Below are positions 1 to 45,579 of a DNA stretch of 64,000 nt, piece by piece. The stretch is from Butyrivibrio sp. LC3010 (GTDB lineage: Bacteria > Bacillota > Clostridia > Lachnospirales > Lachnospiraceae): the NCBI RefSeq assembly GCF_000424385.1, contig NZ_AUJU01000003.1:1-64000 (forward strand). Reading direction: 5' to 3'. Every line of letters starts with the position of its first letter. Position 1 is the stretch's first letter. A model generated the notes under the pieces. It had not been told where the DNA came from. It made no database searches and saw only the letters and a program-made list of their open reading frames with translations. The translations under genes were made by a program, and so were the position numbers.

Positions 1-169
<169 letters not shown>

Positions 170-353
170 AAATGTTTCTCAAACATCTCTGTTTAAGATC
201 GTTCGTCTTCTGACCAGAACTTAAGCTTGGCTTTTGTTCTGTCCGTTTTACCTTTAGTTAGGTTGTTTTGTTCTCTGAATATTCTTTTTGGAATTTTCAG
301 GGTTGCATTACTATTTCATTGTCAAAGTACAATCTCATCATATTGATGAGGAA

Positions 354-442
354 CGCAGAAGGAGGGATTTGAACCCTCGCGCCGCTATTAACGACCTGCA
401 CCCTTTCCAGGGGTGTCTCTTCAACCTCTTGAGTACTTCTGC
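354..442 (-). tRNA. tRNA-Ser (anticodon GGA)
   Basis: A 7-bp acceptor stem (GCAGAAG with CTTCTGC), anticodon stem CACCC/GGGTG around loop CTGGAAA (anticodon GGA), a long variable arm typical of class II tRNAs, and a TTCAAAT T-loop are all visible on the minus strand. The discriminator base is G, as expected for serine tRNA. CCA is not encoded. It lies between the tRNA-Ser(UGA) gene and the 16S gene in the same direction, so cotranscription is likely. Confidence 0.95.
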
Positions 443-481
443 AAAAGTGTTGACTTCATCTCTTCACTCTTTAATTTTGAG

Positions 482-567
482 CGGAGCGAGAGGGATTCGA
501 ACCCTCGTGGCGTTGCCGCCAAACGGTTTTCAAGACCGCCTCGTTATGACCGCTTCGATATCGCTCC
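482..567 (-). tRNA. tRNA-Ser (anticodon TGA)
   Basis: Acceptor stem GGAGCGA/TCGCTCC, anticodon stem GCGGT/ACCGT around loop CTTGAAA (anticodon TGA), a long variable arm and the T-loop TTCGAAT identify a class II serine tRNA with discriminator G. It is the first gene after the consensus promoter at 616-644. The second tRNA-Ser follows after a 39-nt spacer and the 16S gene about 185 nt further on. Confidence 0.95.
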
Positions 568-5913: not shown

Positions 5914-5930
5914 GATGACATAAAAATATA

Positions 5931-6130
5931 ATCTTCGGGGCAGGGTGTAATTCCCTACCGGCGGTAACTGAGAAGCTTTTTATTTTGTATGTCAGCTTAA
6001 TCATTCATTAATGACATCGAAACAGAAATGTTTTGCTGATAATCTGCTTGCATCAGAAGTCCGCGAACCGTTTTTACGGCCGATTTGGTGAGATTCCAAA
6101 ACCGACAGTATAGTCTGGATGATAGAAGAT
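5931..6130 (+). ncRNA. FMN riboswitch (RFN element)
   Basis: The conserved RFN blocks are present in order: ATCTTCGGGGCAGGGTG, CCCTACCGGCGGTAA, AGTCCGCGAACC, GATTTGGTGAGATTCC and CCGACAGTATAGTCTGGATG, closed by GAAGAT pairing with ATCTTC (P1). The P2-P3 arm is long because of an extended internal hairpin (about 5970-6050). A terminator hairpin follows at 6149, so FMN binding probably causes premature termination upstream of ribU. Confidence 0.96.
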
Positions 6131-6148
6131 GTCGTTTTATTTTGTCCC

Positions 6149-12174: not shown

Positions 12175-12203
12175 ATTTTATTTAATTAAAACTTTATAGC
12201 CAA
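12175..12203 (-). promoter_or_regulatory. Possible promoter of the coiled-coil/M23 operon
   Basis: TTGGCT, 17 nt, TAAAAT on the minus strand, giving a leader of about 25 nt that ends in the strong GGGAGGGG ribosome-binding site. Confidence 0.4.
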
Positions 12204-12316
12204 ATACTAGATTACATTATTTATGCATTTCGCACAATAATACTATGAAATAATTCCTTGTTTTGTTTATATTAACGTCTAGTTTAAATTTTATTAATAA
12301 TTTGTTCATATTTGAT

Positions 12317-12325
12317 TGTTATAAT
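12317..12325 (+). promoter_or_regulatory. Extended -10 promoter upstream of a structured RNA
   Basis: TGTTATAAT is a consensus extended -10 element on the plus strand; no convincing -35 box is present 16-18 nt upstream. Predicted start is about 12332, just before the structured segment. Confidence 0.45.
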
Positions 12326-12331
12326 TAAACA

Positions 12332-12450
12332 GAACCAAGGAAAATGAGGTTCATGAGCGAAGCTTATTAGTAGCTCCGAAAGATAGATAAATTTTTTCAT
12401 AATAGCCCGGGTGCCGAAAGGTGCCTGGGCACTCCTCATTATTGAGGAAT
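12332..12450 (+). ncRNA. Candidate structured RNA (unassigned class)
   Basis: The 384-nt gap between two minus-strand genes contains a compact set of helices on the plus strand: an outer stem AATGAGG (12343-12349) with CCTCATT (12434-12440), a small GAGC/GCTC helix (12355-12376), and an 11-bp hairpin GCCCGGGTGCC-GAAA-GGTGCCTGGGC (12405-12430) capped by a GNRA tetraloop. That hairpin uses three G-U wobbles, which pair only if the plus strand is the RNA. The 3' arm of the outer stem can instead form CCTCA/TGAGG (12434-12447), a switch-like alternative. It matches no riboswitch class I could recall, and no gene follows on the same strand. The remainder of the gap (12451-12560) holds one more hairpin (12477-12502). 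Confidence 0.5.
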
Positions 12451-12560
12451 TATTACTTTCAATATAGATTTCTATCTGAACGCATATAGGAAAATGCGTT
12501 CAAAAATCCGTTATTTCACAGATTCCTGAACGTATTCCATTTATATATCTATAAATGATA

Positions 12561-13199
12561 TCAATCATTCTGAAGCGTTATTGACTGTATCTCTTCATTC
12601 AGTGATAGCATTCTGTCGTCAAGCTCCGCCACCATCCTGGCACATTCAAATAACTGCGCTTTTATATTTGCAGGTGCCTTGGTCTCGAATTTATATTGAA
12701 TCTTATGTTCCAGACTTGCCCAGAAATCCATGGCAACAGTACGAATCTGGACCTCAACCTTAACCTCTGCCTTATGATCAGACAAATATACAGGAACTGC
12801 AACAATCATGTGATAGCTGCGGTAGCCACTGGTTTTGGGATTCATTATGTAATCCTTTATAGTCAGTACCTTAATGTCCTGCTGGTTGCTTATCATGTCC
12901 GCAATACGATAAATATCTGAAGTAAAAGAGCATATGATTCTGATACCGGCTATATCATTGATATATTTCATCATGTTTTCCAGTGTTGATTCATAGCCGT
13001 GCCTTTTAAGCTTTTTAACAATACTTTCAGGAGTCTTAATTCTGGACTTTATATGTTCTATCGGATTATATCTGTGAACTTCTTGAAATTCATCATTTAG
13101 TATCTCAATTTTTGTATTTATTTGTTTAAGAGCTGAATTATATAGAAGGCTGACTTCTTCCCAGCTTTTTATATCTCCATCTGAAAATCTGGACTCCAT
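12561..13199 (-). CDS. Small alarmone synthetase, (p)ppGpp synthase (RelQ/SAS1 type)
   Basis: A 212-residue protein made only of the RelA/SpoT synthetase domain, without a hydrolase or TGS/ACT regions. Typical motifs are RIKTPESIVKKLKR (ATP binding), DIAGIRIICSF, GYRSYHMIVAVPV (G-loop-like Tyr) and VEVQIRTVAMDFWASLEHKI with the catalytic Glu. Length and the C-terminal helices match the tetrameric SAS1/RelQ group, which transfers pyrophosphate from ATP to GTP or GDP. The ATG is preceded by a weak GGGGG-containing leader (13200-13210). It appears to be a single gene between the structured RNA and the polysaccharide locus. Confidence 0.93.
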   Translation of the reverse strand: MESRFSDGDIKSWEEVSLLYNSALKQINTKIEILNDEFQEVHRYNPIEHIKSRIKTPESIVKKLKRHGYESTLENMMKYINDIAGIRIICSFTSDIYRIADMISNQQDIKVLTIKDYIMNPKTSGYRSYHMIVAVPVYLSDHKAEVKVEVQIRTVAMDFWASLEHKIQYKFETKAPANIKAQLFECARMVAELDDRMLSLNEEIQSITLQND

Positions 13200-44310: not shown

Positions 44311-45579
44311 TTATTGTTTTTTCTTGATACTGTCACTGTATGCCCAGAAATCAAAATTATTTATTTCGATATAAGGCATTTCACTGTCATCAAGCCCTCT
44401 CAGCTTCTGAATTCTGTGAGCAAGAACCGCTGCGTAAATCTGTCTTCCTTTTTCGTTGTAATGAAGACCGTCTACAAGATAATCATCTATAGTTTCCATC
44501 TTAAGGTCAAACTGTGACGCATACATGGAATCCATAAAGTCTATGCCCATATCACTGGCAAGGTTGCTGGCAGTATTGGAATACTCTGAAAGCGTACCAA
44601 TTCCTTTACTTACGGTATAACTGTCTCCAATAAGATATCCGTCTGAGTTGTACCATACACAATATGATGGTCCGCAGAGAATAAACTGCGCCTTGGGGCT
44701 TATGGTCTTAAGTGTATTTATTCCCTCTGAAAGAGCTCCGCTATATGAATGATAATCTACATAATTGGAATTATACAAATCTTTTCCGTTTATATAGTCA
44801 TTTGCTCCATACTCAATAACATACAGATCCACCTTTTCGGGATCAACCCTTTTAAGCTCCTCACCCGCAGGATACTGATCAAGGAAAGAAGCGTTTATCT
44901 TACCTGCAAGGGCATAGCTGATTCCTATAAAACATGAATCACTAAATGTATCAAGTTCAAGGCCCATGTCTCTTGAAAGAGATGCTGCCGTTCCTCCTAT
45001 TGCCAGGTTATAGAACTTAACCTTTTTCCCAAGAAGCGAACAGGTATAAGAGGGTATATCAGATGCCGTTCCTCTGGCATTGTCAAACTGGCTGTCACCA
45101 ATAAAGACTATGTCATAATACTTATCCTTTTTGGGTTCTTCTGCAGGAGTAGCCGCAGGGTCTTCTACGGGAGTCTCAGCAGGTGTCTCAGCCACGGTCT
45201 GTTCTGTTTCAGTGGTATCGGTGGCGGGTACATCAGCAGTTACCGCCTCTGCCTGCTGTACTTCAGCCGCAGGAAGCGCAGGCTCAACTATCTCCTCAGG
45301 ATCAAATGCCACTCCATCCGACGTTACTGCCATAGGCTTTTCAGCTGCTTCTGCTGTAGAAGCTTCAGCGCCATCACCTTCTGCATTCTGCTCCAAACCA
45401 GTCGCCTGCCCCTGACTTACGCCATCAGACACGGCTTCCTCCGAAGTCTCCCCGGTTATCTCTTCTTCCACAACCGGTTCATTTACATTTTTTGAAGTCA
45501 GCTTAGACGGATCACCGCAGCCGGCTATTGAGACGGTAAGCATTAAAGCAGTCAGTCCCATAACAAATCTTTTTTTCAT
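44311..45579 (-). CDS. SGNH/GDSL hydrolase lipoprotein
   Basis: A 422-residue exported lipoprotein. The signal peptide ends in the lipobox SIAGC (Cys about residue 21). A long low-complexity linker follows (about 22-150, rich in Ala, Glu, Thr, Val and Pro), spanning the wall, then an SGNH domain with complete blocks: FIGDSQFDN (Ser), NLAIGGTAA, EYGANDYI (Asn) and DGLHYNEKGRQIY (Asp/His). It should be an active esterase or acyltransferase on surface glycan. It has a possible promoter at 45623-45652 and its own terminator, so it is a single-gene unit between the MBOAT block and a GT2 gene. Confidence 0.91.
   Translation of the reverse strand: MKKRFVMGLTALMLTVSIAGCGDPSKLTSKNVNEPVVEEEITGETSEEAVSDGVSQGQATGLEQNAEGDGAEASTAEAAEKPMAVTSDGVAFDPEEIVEPALPAAEVQQAEAVTADVPATDTTETEQTVAETPAETPVEDPAATPAEEPKKDKYYDIVFIGDSQFDNARGTASDIPSYTCSLLGKKVKFYNLAIGGTAASLSRDMGLELDTFSDSCFIGISYALAGKINASFLDQYPAGEELKRVDPEKVDLYVIEYGANDYINGKDLYNSNYVDYHSYSGALSEGINTLKTISPKAQFILCGPSYCVWYNSDGYLIGDSYTVSKGIGTLSEYSNTASNLASDMGIDFMDSMYASQFDLKMETIDDYLVDGLHYNEKGRQIYAAVLAHRIQKLRGLDDSEMPYIEINNFDFWAYSDSIKKKQ

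Follow-up and report, generated by a model that had tools for sequence, protein, structure and literature searches.

Between a minus-strand gene that starts at 12176 and a convergent gene of the RelA/SpoT type, positions 12331 to about 12455 of the plus strand of the window, by which is meant the whole stretch of 64,000 nucleotides that was analysed, very probably hold a small RNA gene. An earlier sequence-only reading of this DNA had pointed to an extended -10 element here, and the element is indeed in the sequence; it had also noticed that no same-strand gene lies directly downstream, and the next gene is found on the minus strand. The features of the window are as follows.

1 to 567, minus strand, left edge: 5' end of a 16S rRNA and two tRNA-Ser genes (window scan).
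5927 to 6134, plus strand: FMN riboswitch RF00050 (Rfam, 105.5 bits).
Start at 12176, minus strand, on the other flank of the stretch: gene of 202 aa with no Pfam family over the cut-off.
12283 to 12310, plus strand: direct-repeat box with an 11-bp period, consisting of TTTAAA (12283-12288), TTAATA (12294-12299) and TTCATA (12305-12310).
12317 to 12325, plus strand: extended -10 element TGT-TATAAT in the sequence (TG 12317-12318, TATAAT 12320-12325), 9 nt after the box.
12331 to 12455, plus strand: predicted small RNA of ~125 nt, both ends placed from the -10 position, homology and fold.
12331 to 12379, plus strand: 5' part, poorly conserved on comparison of homologues, with the outer-stem half 12343-12349 and an 8-codon ORF from 12344.
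12392 to 12404, plus strand: anti-start segment UUUUUUCAUAAUA, the complement of UAUUAUGAAAAAA, kept in homologues.
12405 to 12430, plus strand: covarying 11-bp hairpin (arms 12405-12415 and 12420-12430, GAAA loop 12416-12419).
12432 to 12437, plus strand: anti-Shine-Dalgarno segment CUCCUC, kept in homologues.
12433 to 12455, plus strand: possible weak terminator, by sequence a UCCUCA/UGAGGA hairpin followed by AUUAUUAC.
12561 to 13199, minus strand: RelA/SpoT-domain gene (Pfam PF04607), the convergent neighbour, outside the RNA.
44311 to 45579, minus strand: lipoprotein gene with the start GAGGAGCTATTATGAAAAAAA, the best-scoring predicted partner of the RNA.

Homologues of the RNA are found throughout the window's genus and beyond it. 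A blastn search of 99 genomes with 12300-12520 recovered the core in the genus, where 58 of 61 genomes carry it (G017, G018 and G053 gave no usable match); all 58 loci have TTTTTCATAAT, a hairpin and ACTCCTC, and the anti-start core UUUUUCAUAAU is present in every one. A pattern scan of named genomes returned at least 118 stretches, of which 94 with the hairpin were retained (among these L106, to which a simple count gave no more than 5 pairs) and 24 without it were dropped. By their titles, 77 of the 94 listed loci belong to Lachnospiraceae or a member genus (Roseburia, Eisenbergiella, Acetatifactor, Butyrivibrio and others, which we take to be placed in that family), 15 are labelled only broadly and 2 bear the name of another group. 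At the loci L063 (titled Bacillus sp.) and L151 (titled Muribaculaceae) a normal RNA copy sits beside a RelA gene that shares ~73% identity with the window's, and these are likely mislabelled or mixed bins. The 58 and the 94 loci were pooled as 152, five of the 94 being the same places as five of the 58 and hence counted twice, and a covariance model (R1) was built from 131 distinct sequences. It matches 89 of 299 genomes of the same family, spread over 88 of 298 genera. In a class-level sample it matches 3 of 196 genomes, all in the window's own genus with its genome among them. There is usually one match per genome, with two in G001, G030 and G200 and one at E <= 0.001 in the window's genome (G000); the match on the window, 12369-12443 at 85.4 bits, is to a model of which the window sequence is a part. 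Absences from individual genomes are not firm because the searches used strict filters.

The core has the layout U5-6 CAUAAU, hairpin, CUCCUC in the family. Since the scan pattern partly enforces the segments in the 94 loci, their invariance rests on the 58 blast-found copies and on 20 low-scoring remote copies found by a model that had been trained on copies carrying the motif: the anti-start UUUUUCAUAA and CUCCUC are present in 58 of 58 and 20 of 20, the remote copies all having TTTTTCATAA 5' of the hairpin and CTCCTC 3' of it. The hairpin sequences of the remote copies differ widely. These flanking segments, the family-wide homologues and a direct-repeat promoter box are additions to what the sequence-only reading had seen.

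The pairing of the hairpin is kept while its sequence changes. In the alignment of 131 rows 97.3% of hairpin cells are paired and both sides have changed at 10 of the 11 pairs; the covariation score is 0.592 against 0.264 in shuffles that ignore relatedness, with 0 of 500 as high, and it is at most 0.135 when the hairpin is slid. The sequence-only reading had named an absence of homologues with covarying stems as what would speak against its RNA; such homologues exist, and the claim was not refuted on this count. Its 11-bp GAAA-capped hairpin with three G-U pairs is likewise in the sequence, and G-U pairs are common in the aligned hairpins, which favours the plus strand because such pairs fit the plus-strand RNA. 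The plus strand also folds better: 12331-12456 has a predicted energy of -44.6 kcal/mol versus -25.6 +/- 3.3 kcal/mol in dinucleotide shuffles (z -5.7), as compared to -35.1 kcal/mol for the minus strand (z -3.4). It is hardly credible that the conserved signal stems instead from the minus strand, as a short frame ATGAAAAAA... preceded by a ribosome-binding site of its own. The core read on that strand does give GAGGAGT-hairpin-TATTATGAAAAAA, but a 4-nt difference between close relatives (AGATAGATTTTTT vs AGATAGATAAATTTTTT) breaks the frame, the kept G-U pairs fit the plus strand, and the box and -10 face it; the minus-strand ORF was rejected on the frame break and the G-U pairs.

The window RNA is predicted to fold so that the run of six U residues is weakly paired with an upstream GAAAGA and CUCCUC is paired with UGAGGA in a weak helix, both segments lying outside the conserved hairpin. 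As they sit in small helices and are not freely single-stranded, a target could be paired only once these weak helices had opened. The outer 7-bp stem that the sequence-only reading had drawn around the hairpin can be formed (AATGAGG 12343-12349 with CCTCATT 12434-12440) but is not conserved, its half ATGAGG being found in the 75 nt before the core at 3 of 147 sites among the matches listed, compared to 0.9% in shuffles. The rival CCTCA/TGAGG refolding is also present in the sequence, yet mutually exclusive helices are not a family feature because the outer stem is not conserved; and the 8-codon ORF is opened by the ATG at 12344 as described, but that ATG is missing in the close relatives L002-L006. 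Thus the switch-like reading finds no support, as the elements on which it was built (exclusive helices around the outer stem, and the small ORF within) are not conserved. A riboswitch or leader that controls a plus-strand gene by alternative helices is very improbable: an outer stem incompatible with CCTCA/TGAGG can be drawn in the window sequence, but no same-strand gene lies directly downstream of a locus whose next gene is convergent, and no Rfam riboswitch reaches threshold here. This candidate was rejected since the outer stem and the ORF are unconserved. The alternative that had been offered, a stand-alone plus-strand small RNA, is supported by the covarying homologues, the RNA's own promoter and the mostly convergent neighbour.

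That neighbour could itself be the object of regulation. In 57 of 58 same-genus loci, and in 60 of 94 pattern-scan loci among the matches listed, the RelA/SpoT-type gene is convergent with its end no more than 800 nt from the core, as would suit a cis-acting antisense or 3'-end regulator of this gene. However, the gene was not found in 32 of the 94 listed loci, 9 of which hold less than 1000 nt downstream so that 23 are informative; it is on the same strand as the RNA at one locus and nearly 8 kb off at another. Moreover the conserved core lies outside the gene and its conserved segments match start sites, not the gene end. Such a cis-acting role is accordingly quite improbable.

Among the matches listed, a direct repeat TTCAYA-N5-TTCAYA with at most one mismatch precedes 145 of 145 loci (115 with none, 30 with one), or 141 of 141 when only distinct loci are counted (111 and 30), the count having taken in 145 of the 152 loci and left out 7 without 140 nt of upstream sequence; shuffled upstream sequences reach the box at this stringency in 1.4% of cases. 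Other hexamer spacings (7-10 and 12-15) gave 0 to 15 loci, and only the 11-bp spacing stands out. Box and best -10 are 9 nt apart in 107 of the 145 loci, and TGN precedes the -10 in 48 of the 112 sites that have a perfect box and a 9-nt gap, both among the matches listed. The box is present with at most one mismatch in 16 of the 20 remote copies and with 2-3 mismatches in the other 4. A direct repeat just ahead of the -10 is the layout of promoters that are activated by OmpR-type response regulators, and the repeat at 12283-12310 is a probable site for a response regulator. PhoP was first considered because of the direct repeat, and a search of pstS loci gave no support: the best box in the 30 loci from that search agrees at 12-15 of 18 positions, only G036 and G012 representing same-genus genes over the family cut-off, and none of the 30 pst loci examined holds a full box in stretches outside which operon starts may fall.

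In its stricter forms the box was found mostly at this RNA. The strict form GTTCATANTTTRTTCATA has 20 matches in 46 genomes and its reversed pattern 0; 13 are at this RNA, 6 precede an RNA-like sequence upstream of lexA and 1 precedes a third type, the seven away from this RNA all lying ahead of sRNA-like sequences with C-rich motifs. On our reading, the other neighbours of the strict box thus appear to be small RNAs. When the -10 was added to the pattern, 10 genomes gave 8 matches in 8 of them (5 at this RNA, 2 at the lexA-side RNA, 1 at the third type) and no match in the remaining 2. A triple box with -10 and one mismatch allowed gave 15 matches in 20 RNA-carrying genomes, none in 5 of the 20, and 0 for the reversed control; all 15 start within 100 bases upstream of the model match of this RNA. 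Strict patterns of this kind reveal the strongest sites only, and weaker sites at ordinary genes would escape them. A loose box with 2 mismatches has 18 matches in the window's own genome compared to 15 for the reversed control, a count that is uninformative; the stricter patterns alone carried information.

A number of sequences resemble the RNA in design but with other hairpins: CUUUUUUCAUACC-hairpin-CCUCCUCCC in L231 and L251, and CUUUUUCAUAAUA-hairpin-UCCUCCC in L248 and L249. The first pair is the third RNA type, which directly follows the box in L231 (G024) and L251 (G041) with ACTCCCCCAATAAAACTTTTTTCATACC, a hairpin and CCTCCTCCC. The second is a minus-strand paralogue in L248 (G001) and L249 (G030), CTTTTTCATAATA-TGCCAGGTAAG...GCATCCTCCCTTTTATAGGGCTTTTTTT, with a good-looking terminator and, by eye, no perfect box directly ahead of its apparent -10. 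The lexA-side sRNA-like gene (L230/L252) is found on contig 2 of the window's genome, from ~59254 down to 59130 on the minus strand, with the same promoter box; it has lexA on one side and, on the other, a divergent gene for a LysM-like protein (both named by reading), contains CUCCCCCUCAU, and shows CACTATCTCCCCCTCATAAG followed by a terminator-like hairpin. Six further same-genus loci carry it (L227-L229, L238, L242 and L253), and it could instead be a lexA leader. Sub-threshold scores were all that Rfam searches gave for the lexA-side RNA and for the third type, the lowest E-value being 0.0087 for RefA1 (22.5 bits, cut-off 94).

The conserved segments of the RNA under study point to a possible function. 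With the hairpin removed they are the reverse complement of GAGGAG-U-UAUU-AUGAAAAAA (GAGGAG-N5-AUGAAAAAA), which reads as the canonical start site of a Met-Lys-Lys protein. Taking away the stem leaves a linker of 5 nt in 150 of 152 loci among the matches listed and of 3-8 nt in the 20 remote copies; of 24 sampled genes, 15 have 4-7 nt between GAGGAG and ATG (overall range 2-12), and GGAG mostly stands 5-10 nt before ATG (n=136). Pairing was scored against 371 gene starts that a crude script had called in 464 kb of the 4.59-Mb genome, window included, with an energy model that ignores the junction cost of the looped-out hairpin. The native order of segments gave a mean of -10.96 kcal/mol at the 371 starts as opposed to -9.55 with the segments swapped, and -7.09 kcal/mol at internal coding sites; on 300 of the starts the native RNA gave -11.13 kcal/mol versus -8.98 +/- 0.16 for 100 shuffles, and the single segments alone gave -6.1 and -7.3 kcal/mol. 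Some pairing with start sites is to be expected of any anti-Shine-Dalgarno sequence.

Stronger pairing was seen with secretory-like N-termini, as picked by a simple rule (73 genes, -12.8 vs -10.5, p 6e-6), and with five lipobox genes (-17.3 vs -10.9, p 0.004), and here the A-rich second codons of secreted proteins would favour the U6 segment anyway. The best predicted partner among the 371 starts, at -27.7 kcal/mol with the hairpin removed, is the lipoprotein gene at 44311-45579 (minus strand), the product of which looks SGNH-like to us. Orthologues of this gene were matched in 34 genomes, the window's own included, and 30 loci were read, 29 besides its own: 28 of the 29 pair at -12.1 to -24.5 kcal/mol, the remaining one at -4.1 having a mis-called start, and 12 of the 28 are at or below the 5th percentile of the sampled starts (-17.9). 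Pairing of the orthologues is thus strong but not exceptional. Strict complementarity to both segments at once is seldom found: in 62 genomes the joint target GAGGAGT-N1-7-TTATGAAAAAA has 9 matches (one outside the family, 0 in the window's own genome), as compared to 2 for the reversed pattern. By our own reading 7 of the 9 starts look like those of lipoproteins or secreted proteins; orthologues do not recur among the 9 except for one 82-aa protein in G001 and G030, and this search names no conserved target.

The same segments may have a different explanation, namely that the RNA binds a protein such as a chaperone, an RNase or a translation factor, for which the U tract and hairpin would be the site, while CUCCUC would serve the terminator and have no antisense role. 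A U-rich stretch beside a strong hairpin resembles chaperone-binding modules. In 30 of 149 copies among the matches listed a terminator-like tail of G-rich arm and U tract follows CUCCUC (0.6% of shuffles), which can there supply the 5' arm of the hairpin. Protein binding is nevertheless unlikely, since it leaves unexplained the CAU behind the U run in the 58 same-genus and the 20 remote copies, the keeping of CUCCUC where a downstream G arm was not found (it was found in 67 of 149 sites among the matches listed), and a hairpin-less linker that stays within the natural spacing of Shine-Dalgarno sequence and AUG.

The RNA is probably a trans-acting repressor of translation that is built on the design of the csRNAs and LhrC, from which it differs in promoter box, in host family and in its bipartite layout. 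We infer that the TTCAYA direct repeat immediately ahead of the -10 is the binding site of a response regulator, probably one of the OmpR/PhoB type, which would switch on the ~125-nt RNA, in which U5-6 CAUAAU and CUCCUC flank a hairpin that changes in sequence and keeps its pairing. CUCCUC would pair with the Shine-Dalgarno sequence GAGGAG and UUUUUUCAU with AUGAAAAAA, both together on one message, with the hairpin looped out at the junction of the duplex. Such a duplex would block ribosome entry, chiefly on Met-Lys-Lys messages, e.g. those of lipoproteins and secreted proteins. The comparisons establish the conserved structured element with its strand, its promoter box and its complementarity to start sites, whereas its transcription, the class of its regulator, the pairing, the repression and the choice of envelope proteins as targets are inferences.

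Two known systems invite comparison. The csRNAs are small RNAs of Streptococcus that are controlled by CiaRH, from promoters with TTTAAG-N5-TTTAAG at an 11-bp period and a distance of ten to the -10, as set out in the available part of PMC3091779. Shared with them, so far as that part describes them, are the 11-bp direct repeat close ahead of the -10 (here with a 9-nt gap in 107 of 145 loci among the matches listed), the anti-Shine-Dalgarno and anti-AUG segments (here CUCCUC and UUUUUCAUAA), and stand-alone genes with several RNAs under one box per genome (in the window's genome this RNA and the lexA-side one). Measured against the same part of that source, the differences are a TTCAYA-N5-TTCAYA box in place of the CiaR box TTTAAG-N5-TTTAAG, another bacterial family with usually one model match per genome, and anti-start and anti-Shine-Dalgarno segments that are split by a covarying hairpin, the former extending into a U run that matches AUGAAAAAA. 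The pairing sequences of csRNAs are unpaired within the RNA, which ends in an intrinsic terminator; in the present RNA they fall outside the conserved hairpin but each in a weak helix of the predicted fold, and a G arm with U tract follows at 30 of 149 sites among the matches listed. LhrC1-5 of Listeria are controlled by LisRK, and their CU-rich sites, one of which is in the terminator, bind a surface-protein message at its ribosome-binding region; there are three redundant UCCC sites and five copies (PMC4132741, in the portion available). The likeness to that account lies in two-component control and in a CU-rich site against the ribosome-binding site, both putative here, and in such a site within the terminator, here a possible one. 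Unlike LhrC as so described, the RNA has no UCCC in 12331-12455, a single CUCCUC segment and one R1 match in its genome; nor does the available portion of PMC4132741, compared by description, mention a separate anti-AUG/U-run segment that is split from the anti-Shine-Dalgarno segment by a hairpin. By analogy the RNA would work like the csRNAs and LhrC and appears to be a member of neither. Its existence suggests that this design arose more than once in Gram-positive bacteria.

The RNA was said by the sequence-only reading to fit no known class, and Rfam bears this out: release 15 gave no family at the RNA locus when the whole window was searched at gathering thresholds, nothing credible at the RNA when 12177-12570 was searched at E up to 10, and none at the RNA in 16 homologous loci at gathering (L120 was also scanned and dropped as a chance match). 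The highest sub-threshold score at the locus is 18.6 bits for STnc230, on the opposite strand (cut-off 50, E 3.2), and the lowest E-value is 0.82 for CRISPR-DR33 (16.8 bits, cut-off 39). A search of mostly open-access literature, bioRxiv apart, on small RNAs of Butyrivibrio, Lachnospiraceae and Roseburia and on anti-Shine-Dalgarno small RNAs of Clostridium gave, among the papers listed, no title or abstract describing such an RNA, and the searched genus names are absent from the main text, as available, of two genome-wide RNA-motif papers (PMC8632094 and PMC11109978). Lachnospiraceae are a dominant family of the rumen and gut in which this RNA, not matched by Rfam, is widespread. The RNA makes sharp predictions, namely a box by which its regulator may be found, a two-part rule of target pairing, and a regulon that likely consists of envelope and secreted proteins; through it the family would gain a post-transcriptional circuit that is tractable.

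A broader and more tentative proposal, which we hold to be possible and somewhat doubtful, is that Lachnospiraceae have a signalling system whose output is mainly RNA. The strong sites of its regulator would lie almost only before anti-start-site small RNAs (this one, the lexA-side one and the third type), which would clamp the Shine-Dalgarno sequence and AUGAAAAAA across a looped-out hairpin and so lower the synthesis of lipoproteins and secreted proteins as a class under envelope or export stress. GacA acts through RsmY/Z, and such a system could be likened to it.

Downstream of the RNA the window has a palindrome, GAACGCATATAGGAAAATGCGTTC, at 12478-12501, near copies of which occur elsewhere in same-genus genomes. 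At up to 3 mismatches there is none in three of the genomes searched, one more in the window's genome and three in G007, and it is probably a small dispersed repeat unrelated to the RNA.
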